Shown here piece by piece: positions 4,798 to 6,991 of a stretch of 34,621 nt of DNA. Every line of letters begins with the position of its first letter. The stretch's first letter is position 1. The stretch is from Pseudanabaena mucicola FACHB-723 (GTDB lineage Bacteria > Cyanobacteriota > Cyanobacteriia > Pseudanabaenales > Pseudanabaenaceae), in NCBI RefSeq assembly GCF_014696385.1, contig NZ_JACJQB010000036.1:1-34621 (forward strand). The letters run 5' to 3'. Under the pieces are notes generated by a model, which was not told the origin of the DNA, did not search any database, and worked only from the letters and a program-made list of their open reading frames with translations. The position numbers and the translations under genes are program-made.

Positions 4798-4964
4798 ATG
4801 TTCCTCTATGCGTTAGCTAAAAATATTCGGGATCAATGCAACTTCAGGACAATCCCTAGTATAGCGATCGCAAAAAGAGGTATGCCACATAATTCAGCAT
4901 TCATGCTGTATACAAATGCTCCCTTTGATCGCTATACATAATTGATGTTTACTAAGGTTGACAT

Positions 4965-5492
4965 ATGTCCATGCAAACATTTTTAGGCAATGCCGATCAG
5001 TCACAGGGGGAAACTCAAGACCAAAGTCAGGACGGCTGGGATCAAGAAATTATCACCTGTCTAAAATTTGCGATTAACTCGCAGACAATTGGCTTGTTGG
5101 AAAGTGAATTTACGCAGGAAGTGCTAACGGTCAAGGCTGACCATGTGATGCCTGTACCCAATAAGCCATCCTGTATTCTTGGTATCATCAGTCGCCGTCG
5201 TCGCGTTTACTGGGCAGTTGACTTGGCAATGCTATTAGGGCTAAAACCCCTAGCCTCTCAATTAGAGCTTTATGAGGTTATTCTGACTTCTTGCCAAGAT
5301 CTTTCCATCGCCTTGATTGTGCCGAGCATTTTGGGGGTTGTCAAGATTTCTGCCAATAGAGTCGATCGTAATATTATTTCGCTACAATCAACACTAAGAC
5401 CATATCTCAAGGGGTACATTAATGAGGGGGAAGATGTGTTGTATTTACTAAAAGCTGAAAATATTTTGAGATCGACGCTCTTACATTCGTAG
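4965..5492 (+). CDS. CheW-domain protein (PixI-like)
   Basis: A 175-residue soluble adaptor with one CheW domain covering about residues 25-170. The most recognisable part is VMPVPNKPSCILGIISRRRR, then VYWAVDLAMLLGL, matching the cyanobacterial PixI/PilI-type pattern in which the usual WRGE is here RRRR. Proteins of this type link membrane sensors to CheA-like kinases that drive type IV pilus motility and phototaxis. No cheA, mcp or patA-type regulator is in the window. Its gene is followed after 62 bases by the double-ComFB gene on the same strand, so the two are likely co-transcribed. A perfect 15-base tandem duplication covers its stop codon. Confidence 0.85.
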   Translation: MSMQTFLGNADQSQGETQDQSQDGWDQEIITCLKFAINSQTIGLLESEFTQEVLTVKADHVMPVPNKPSCILGIISRRRRVYWAVDLAMLLGLKPLASQLELYEVILTSCQDLSIALIVPSILGVVKISANRVDRNIISLQSTLRPYLKGYINEGEDVLYLLKAENILRSTLLHS

Positions 5493-5506
5493 CTCTTACA
5501 TTCGTA
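5477..5506. repeat. 15-bp perfect tandem duplication across a stop codon
   Basis: The unit at 5477-5491 is repeated exactly at 5492-5506. The CheW stop (TAG, 5490-5492) falls at the junction. Because the unit is five codons long, read-through would add LLHS and meet a second in-frame stop. Confidence 0.9.
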
Positions 5507-5554
5507 AAAACACACTGGCACTATCAATCACTCAATAGCTATTTAGTTAGACTC

Positions 5555-6568
5555 ATGGAATCTTGCCGTAACGTTTTAGTTGAATTTGTCTACCGAGAAG
5601 TGAGTGCTCAGATTCAAAAGCTAGGCAGTGGAATTCGCAATCAATACATTATTGAAGAGGTGGTTGCCTATGCCCTAAATCGATTGCCGCCAATGTTTGT
5701 TTCGACAACGACAGATTGGCATCAAAAAAGACGTGAATGTTTGACGATGGGGGATGAAATTAACAAAGTGGTGCGCCAAGCTTTGTTAGGAGTGCGCCGC
5801 GATCCCCTACGAGAAGTTAGTCCCCTTGATGATATTGAACTAGCCAACGCACCCTACGCCCTGTTGCGATCGCAAAAACTGTTGGGTTGGTCAAAGCTAA
5901 AGTGGTCTGATTTGCCCAAAGCCCTAGAAAACGCTTTAGAAAATGCCTTAGCTAAAGGTCAAGCGCAACAAAATTTTAGTCAAGCATCGCCACAGTTTCA
6001 AAAATATAAATCTTGGGTCAACAAGAAAAGCTCTACCACGCAAGAATTTAATGAGCCTGCGTATAAATACAGCATTTTCAGTCCTGCACAGCAGCATGAA
6101 TATGCGACTTACTTACTGGAAGCTAATTACTTAGTTCATGCCCTAGAGCGTTTGGTGATTAGAATGGCACAGAACCGTGCTAAGAGTTTTAATGAAACGG
6201 AACTAAAATTTATTCGGCTTGAGGATGTATTAGCGCAGACGTTAAATCGATTGCCCTCTATGTATGCGACTTCGACCAAAGGTTTAGGACATCTACGTTA
6301 TTACGCACAGTTAAATATTGGTTCTGAGGTGGCAATCATCGTGCATGATGTGATGATTGCCACTCGTAACCGTTCCTATCAAAGAATAGATCCTTTGTTA
6401 TTTATGGATATTCGACGTGAGCGAGAGAGTGCCATTGAAGATGTCAGTCATTTATTGGGGCAAGAGGTAAATTGGCAAAACTTAGCAGAAGCGATCGCCA
6501 ATGCCTTAGAAAGCGCTCAAGCTGGCAAAGTCTGCTGGTTGCGATCGCAAAATAATGTCATGGCATAA
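5555..6568 (+). CDS. Protein with two ComFB domains
   Basis: The 337-residue protein has two copies of the ComFB fold (late competence protein family). Copy one, about residues 1-100, contains EEVVAYALNRLPP (NRLPP at 42-46). Copy two, about 190-300, contains LEDVLAQTLNRLPSMYATS (NRLP at 231-234). Stand-alone cyanobacterial ComFB proteins have been described as cyclic-di-GMP receptors affecting competence and piliation. Binding by this protein is inference. The ~90-residue linker is Ala/Gln/Lys-rich with ALENALENALAKG. It has no signal peptide or membrane helix. The position 62 bases behind a PixI-like CheW gene suggests a role in pilus-based motility or DNA uptake. Confidence 0.8.
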   Translation: MESCRNVLVEFVYREVSAQIQKLGSGIRNQYIIEEVVAYALNRLPPMFVSTTTDWHQKRRECLTMGDEINKVVRQALLGVRRDPLREVSPLDDIELANAPYALLRSQKLLGWSKLKWSDLPKALENALENALAKGQAQQNFSQASPQFQKYKSWVNKKSSTTQEFNEPAYKYSIFSPAQQHEYATYLLEANYLVHALERLVIRMAQNRAKSFNETELKFIRLEDVLAQTLNRLPSMYATSTKGLGHLRYYAQLNIGSEVAIIVHDVMIATRNRSYQRIDPLLFMDIRRERESAIEDVSHLLGQEVNWQNLAEAIANALESAQAGKVCWLRSQNNVMA

Positions 6569-6580
6569 AAAATGTCATAA

Positions 6581-6611
6581 AAGAGAGGGGCTGCATTGCA
6601 GCCCCTCTCTT
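6581..6611. terminator. Bidirectional terminator between ComFB gene and ftrC
   Basis: Perfect 15-bp inverted repeat (6581-6595 with 6597-6611), GC-rich in the middle (GAGGGGCTGC) and A/T-rich at both outer ends. It sits 12 bases after one stop and 14 bases after the convergent ftrC stop. Confidence 0.75.
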
Positions 6612-6625
6612 CAGATAAAGATTAT

Positions 6626-6991
6626 TTAAGCGTCGTAAACAATTTCCACGACTTCTAATTCTTGCTTAGTACCAACAAATGGACTATCTTCGGTCAGGAA
6701 TAGCATACAGTGGCACTCTTTGCGTTCACGCATGGGTACGCAAGGACAGTTCCAGTAGGTATCTTTGACTTCAGCTTCCTTATCTTCATAATAGCGACAA
6801 GGACAGAGCGGAGAACCTAACTCTTCTTTGTGCTTTGCTAAACCTTCAATCACCGCATTGGTCACACTAGGGTCGGCACAGAAGAAAGTGCCTGTGTTTT
6901 TTGCGTATTTTTCGGAAAACTTTCGCATTGCCTCAAAACTTTTGGAGGAAGCTTTATTTTTCCCACGATCTGACTCTGGGGTAAGGGACAT
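6626..6991 (-). CDS. ftrC: Ferredoxin:thioredoxin reductase, catalytic beta subunit
   Basis: This subunit carries the [4Fe-4S] cluster and redox disulfide that pass electrons from photosynthetically reduced ferredoxin to thioredoxin. The 121-residue chain shows the exact family spacing CPC (63-65), 16 residues, CPC (82-84), 8 residues, CHC (93-95), plus C38. CPCRYYEDK is a family signature. All ligands and redox cysteines are present. The variable alpha subunit (ftrV) is not adjacent, as is common in cyanobacteria. The gene appears monocistronic, with a terminator at its 3' end. Confidence 0.96.
   Translation of the reverse strand: MSLTPESDRGKNKASSKSFEAMRKFSEKYAKNTGTFFCADPSVTNAVIEGLAKHKEELGSPLCPCRYYEDKEAEVKDTYWNCPCVPMRERKECHCMLFLTEDSPFVGTKQELEVVEIVYDA

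Follow-up and report, generated by a model that had tools for sequence, protein, structure and literature searches.

The closest described relatives of the locus reported here are the ComFB receptors and the CheW adaptors of pilus-taxis operons. The ComFB family comprises receptors of cyclic dinucleotides, as the preliminary description of this DNA had supposed and as the structure of c-di-GMP-bound CdgR (PDB 8hja) and the available part of the Synechocystis report (PMC12313861) indicate. According to that part, the Synechocystis protein forms a dimer with affinity for both c-di-AMP (KD 2.6 uM) and c-di-GMP (KD 1.7 uM), and cells without it have lower levels of the taxis proteins PixJ1, PixL, PilJ and of a CheA (PMC12313861); the CdgR report, in the portion available, describes a dimer that binds two c-di-GMP (PMC13075795). 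In Thermosynechococcus, c-di-GMP switches the direction of phototaxis, according to the accessible text of that study (PMC9090330). The protein encoded in the DNA considered here shares the PF10719 domain with CdgR/ComFB (Anabaena Alr3277, Synechocystis Slr1970), on which its C-terminal half superposes; however, CdgR/ComFB is a single domain, whereas this protein consists of two, each of which has lost 6 of 16 conserved positions. The Bacillus subtilis ComFB (ComF operon protein 2, PDB 4wai) is matched weakly by profile (E 0.005) and by structure (Z 6.5), and it is likewise a single-domain protein in contrast to the tandem one. The neighbouring CheW shares its domain and, with moderate support, its lineage with the PixI-type CheW of tax operons, the comparison having been made with the CheWs of such operons, but the PixI-type CheW sits in a che operon, whereas this one lies outside any such operon, beside a tandem ComFB, and carries an SRRRR loop. 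The unit is a variant combination of known kinds, a ComFB receptor plus a CheW adaptor. A literature search, with subscription papers and preprints outside its scope, returned no paper containing both ComFB and CheW, and none with the phrase 'ComFB domain'.

Based on the comparisons below, we tentatively propose, with a probability of about 0.4, that the two genes constitute an accessory adaptor module, possibly gated by a cyclic dinucleotide, of the type IV pilus chemosensory (tax) system. Both lie on the forward strand of the window, by which we mean the whole 34,621-nucleotide stretch that was analysed, and open reading frames together with Pfam bear out the positions that the preliminary description had given them. 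The CheW gene (4965..5492) encodes 175 residues, with a CheW domain at residues 46-170 that scores 61.7 bits against PF01584 (cut-off 23.5, E 7e-17); its neighbours are a Rieske protein gene and the tandem ComFB gene, and it does not belong to an MCP/CheA operon. Two abutting copies of a 15-bp direct repeat, noticed by eye, span its stop codon at window positions 5477-5506. After an intergenic gap of 62 bp (5493..5554), the tandem ComFB gene (5555..6568) encodes 337 residues. In the interval 4800-6700, no terminator-like site was found where 1.6 were expected, and a promoter scan of both strands gave 8 sites against 4.3 expected (sd 2.3), of which the only one on the forward strand falls inside the CheW gene. 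We infer that the two genes are co-transcribed, which is not certain in all genomes because the gap between them exceeds 200 bp in 6 of 18.

The second protein does contain two ComFB copies with NRLPP and NRLPS cores, as first described from the letters, since both stretches exceed the PF10719 cut-off of 25 bits in the genome scan. With limits set by a domain HMM built in this analysis, the N domain covers residues 5-86 (5567..5812, forward strand; 105.4 bits to the domain HMM, 50.4 to PF10719), with NRLPP at residues 42-46 of the translation, and the C domain covers residues 194-276 (6134..6382, forward strand; 91.6 and 33.5 bits), with NRLPS at 231-235. The region between them, residues 87-193 (5813..6133, forward strand), had been taken for a long Ala/Gln-rich linker, a view that does not hold, as it is mostly predicted helix (residues 99-110, 120-143, 146-158 and 177-190), has low confidence in the AlphaFold model only at about 141-170, and varies in composition among relatives. 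NCBIfam gave no match for any of the four proteins submitted.

AlphaFold, run on the tandem protein with 47 aligned sequences, gives a model with a pLDDT of 88.2, whose pTM of 0.82, given without an inter-domain error estimate, suggests a reliable relative placement of the two ComFB halves. In VIA-align, the C half matches chain A of c-di-GMP-bound CdgR (8hja_A) with Z 9.0 and rmsd 1.7 A over 89 residues, a score to be read with the program's warning that helical folds may commonly give Z values of up to about 13. VIA-align gives one row per entry, and ComFB structures appear in its output on the C half only. The C half has the receptor fold by this comparison, and the same domain also matches 8hja by sequence, the profile of the tandem proteins reaching the 8hja sequence at E 1.3e-24. 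The best Foldseek matches were 8hja and 4wai as well, the top one being 8hja_A at E 2.1e-3, and nothing fell under E 0.001. These results support the fold without proving it, and the tandem protein may correspond to a ComFB dimer joined into one chain. When CheW and the tandem ComFB were modelled as one fused chain, the pTM was 0.60 and the pLDDT of CheW stayed below 50 over much of its length.

Gene-order conservation had been named as a check on the association of the two genes, and the linkage proved to be genus-wide. Among the 29 genomes searched, an orthologue of the tandem ComFB occurs in all 18 Pseudanabaena genomes, that is, the window's own and 17 of 17 others, this set consisting of Pseudanabaena species and MAGs and also including records named Phormidium tenue FACHB-1050, Oscillatoriales cyanobacterium and uncultured cyanobacterium. 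Among the 11 same-class genomes outside the genus, none has a full-length match and seven match by single-domain parts. In all 18 genus genomes, window included, a CheW gene immediately precedes the tandem ComFB gene in the same orientation, at a distance ranging from 6 to 396 bp; the shortest gap is that of G006, wherein the orthologue is split across two contigs, its ComFB gene starting 6 bp after CheW and being cut by the contig end (L057). In G218, an additional genome of the genus, the CheW and tandem ComFB matches are 20 bp apart.

The surroundings of the pair are less constant. At all 10 loci that have wide flanks, CheW and ComFB stay together. The Rieske gene is the immediate upstream neighbour of the pair at 2 of them and is separated from it by a single gene at 3 more, and the FTR-beta gene is the immediate downstream neighbour at 7 and is one gene removed at 1 more; one locus (L063) has neither Rieske nor FTR-beta in the stretch, and five others (L060, L061, L062, L064 and L068) have one flank changed, the pair being intact in all six. 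Therefore, the linkage of CheW to ComFB outlasts its surroundings, by a modest margin over the downstream FTR-beta gene. These counts bear directly on the possibility that the two genes are adjacent merely by gene order inherited within one genus, without any joint function: every example does come from a single genus, and FTR-beta, too, is kept directly beside the pair in 7 of the 10 loci, yet the persistence of the pair where one or both flanks have changed runs against it, and we consider such an explanation improbable.

In 3 of 10 relatives, a hybrid histidine kinase gene immediately precedes CheW in the same orientation (L059 3255-4799, L066 7362-8933 and L067 7560-9134), as called by Pfam for L059 and judged from sequence for the other two. 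The candidate reading of this gene as a diguanylate cyclase in L059 and L067, suggested by weak BLAST similarity to the GGDEF protein of the window, was dropped, as Pfam returns a hybrid histidine kinase in L059. In the stretches examined, no CheW adjoins the other tandem ComFB proteins of this genome. A tie between one of them (C1:42992) and a che cluster about 6 kb upstream (L058, L009) was likewise rejected for want of a conserved link, the two being far apart in G002, wherein the paralogue is at 3650745 and the corresponding CheA, paired by ORF length only, at 748524.

The CheW of the pair could be traced by comparison with genomes outside the genus. A profile of the pair CheWs matches 80 of 386 genomes at 1e-12, and in 20 of 20 outside loci the best-matching CheW is preceded by a gene of the response-regulator cluster and followed by one of the MCP cluster, CheA being present in 13 of the 20 stretches. 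One such operon (L166) reads in Pfam as DUF4388-REC, REC, CheW, dCache-HAMP-MCP and CheA, where DUF4388 is what we take to be the PATAN domain. An HMM of the 20 outside operon CheWs, all drawn from other families, scores the window CheW at 132.5 bits, the CheW of the host's own operon at 123.9 and the next host CheW at 77.3. In a tree that used 14 of the 17 pair CheWs, window-type and outside CheWs group together with support of 87/80, and the whole clade including the host's resident CheW with 91/81. The proposed PixI-like nature of this CheW is supported by that grouping, and the window CheW probably belongs, with moderate support, to the adaptor lineage of PATAN-REC/CheY/CheW/MCP/CheA pilus-taxis operons. 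An operon of this composition, complete with a CheW, is retained on contig C89 of the host genome, which makes the window CheW look like an additional adaptor copy; in the stretch that covers it (L186 1556-9655), this tax operon has CheY twice and ends in a further CheW-like gene. The resident operon CheW falls outside the group of window-type and outside CheWs in the tree, so the extra copy may derive from another lineage or from a lost operon and not from the C89 operon; at this moderate support, any of the three may be its source.

The notion that ComFB proteins are usually single-domain holds for the phylum among the matches listed, and it fails within the genus, wherein the tandem form prevails (four of five ComFB proteins in the host). 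The host genome (3.96 Mb) yields nine ComFB matches, which make up four tandem proteins and one single protein, the latter of the CdgR type and matching 8hja at E 1e-57; one of the tandem proteins, on contig C60, lies near the contig end. Another genome of the set (G002) yields 11 matches, namely five tandem proteins and one single. Across the phylum, 122 of 386 genomes have a ComFB match and 106 are matched by the tandem profile, but among the matches listed, full-length ones occur only in 4 genomes of the same genus and in 0 of 102 others, with up to five candidates scored per genome and matches listed down to about E 1e-25, so that a very diverged tandem may escape. One listed match outside the genus (G323) extends past the first domain, through seven stop codons. 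In this survey, tandem ComFB looks like a trait of the genus. Elsewhere, one genome (G149, L165 5268-6246) has two separate ComFB ORFs side by side, 169 and 106 aa long, and in G323 a single protein combines a ComFB domain with an RRXRR domain (L054 6964-8034).

A tree of 90 ComFB domains, resting on 83 columns and with many forks flagged by the tool as unresolved, unites the N halves of four tandem families (90/71) and, in a second group, the C halves of four (98/92), which fits one old duplication of the domain before the gene duplications. The N halves cluster with single and fused ComFBs that are not of the CdgR type (94/92), and the N half of family E and the C half of family D are placed elsewhere on long branches. 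The tree omits three A-type rows (L025, L028 and L029), L047 and L050 (the same genes as L095 and L091), the L043 fragment and the host protein on C60. For most tandem ComFBs, an origin by a single ancient duplication of the domain and later duplications of the gene is supported, but not proved.

How far the CheW-linked copy has diverged was judged by 16 positions of the domain, each conserved in 13 or all 14 of the non-tandem ComFBs examined, a criterion devised here and not a published one, which judges the pocket by family conservation. By this yardstick, the N half has lost 6 of 16 positions (M4, E5, L7, Y44, Q54 and V70) and the C half also 6 (N2, M4, E11, A36, Q54 and P81), giving 12 of 32 for the CheW-linked family against 8 in family E (two rows only), 7 in B, 7 in C and 4 in D; on these sequence counts the CheW-linked copy is the most derived of the tandem ComFBs. 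Therefore, binding of a cyclic dinucleotide cannot be assumed. Every other N half retains E5 and Q54, and N2 is missing from this C half alone; nearly all other ComFB families examined keep E5 and N2. Such divergence would suit a protein that has given up its ligand and acts purely as a scaffold or decoy for CheW, and the charged SRRRR loop of the pair CheWs, wherein K67, S76 and R79 are fixed in place of the M, N and S of outside CheWs, which have N.RS at that loop, would suit it as well. However, the C-half losses at E11, A36 and Q54 are common to the C halves of other families and Y44F is common to the N half of family E, the LN.LP core persists in both halves and YATS in the C half, which matches a c-di-GMP-bound receptor, and the lost positions, chosen by family conservation, may or may not touch the ligand; we regard a pure scaffold as unlikely.

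One further arrangement can be drawn from the same pattern of losses, and we hold it to be quite unlikely. The two halves could work as a heterodimer within a single chain and share one composite site for a cyclic dinucleotide, to which the N half would supply the invariant N2 and the C half the invariant E5. The protein would hold or release its own CheW, and the messenger would in this way directly control how much adaptor is available to one chemosensory array of the type IV pilus.

Outside the genus, ComFB and chemotaxis genes seldom meet. At 60 ComFB loci examined there, mostly from the top of the phylum match list, CheW is in the stretch at one only (L125, G097); at two of the 60 (L106 and L160) the ComFB ORF was masked by an overlap filter, and neither has CheW. 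At the single positive locus, CheW, MCP, CheA and a single-domain ComFB follow in a row on one strand (L125 348-6462), but this CheW is of another lineage (39.8 bits to the HMM of outside operon CheWs), and the proximity may be chance. A different joining of ComFB to a pilus-taxis part is found in three f22 genomes, wherein DUF4388 (PATAN) is fused to a C-terminal ComFB (L051 6083-7369, L052 5464-6762 and L053 7199-8464, the DUF4388 of the last scoring below cut-off). These proteins resemble the window unit in that they likewise connect ComFB with pilus taxis, and differ from it in having a DUF4388 fusion and one ComFB domain, whereas the window has a neighbouring CheW and two ComFB domains.

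The rarity of such neighbourhoods agrees with a reading in which the tandem ComFB binds CRP-type transcription factors and changes pilus gene expression, CheW being simply a co-expressed motility gene. Known ComFB partners point the same way, as the accessible part of a review describes complexes of Synechocystis ComFB with SyCRP1 and SyCRP2 (PMC13249358) and the available portion of the Anabaena report has CdgR working through DevH (PMC13075795). But it leaves unexplained why CheW stands beside this one paralogue in 18 of 18 genomes, even where the flanks have changed, and we judge it to be somewhat unlikely.

We return, therefore, to the accessory adaptor module as the preferred reading. The extra-copy CheW would plausibly enter an array of the PATAN-REC/CheY/CheW/MCP/CheA type, and the tandem ComFB would be its regulatory partner. 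Upon binding of a cyclic dinucleotide, or of some other partner if the pocket has decayed, the tandem ComFB could alter the amount of CheW that reaches the array, and the level of the messenger could thereby tune pilus-driven phototaxis or gliding. The physical interaction of the two proteins, the binding of a ligand and the effect on motility are what we infer here. The preliminary description had also drawn attention to a GGDEF gene in the same window, whose EAL and REC parts are read from sequence; a special role for it is not borne out, as it is one of about 21 GGDEF ORFs (22 matches) and lies about 18 kb away.

In the cyanobacteria, c-di-GMP controls pilus motility and the direction of phototaxis, and the route by which the message reaches the pilus machinery is left open in the part of the literature available to us (PMC9090330). 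The genus-wide occurrence of a CheW beside a doubled ComFB makes a direct link from messenger to motility testable in motile Pseudanabaena, the binding of a ligand by this diverged copy being a prediction. Beyond this pair, the tandem ComFB paralogues form a natural series for identifying the residues that are important to the receptor family.
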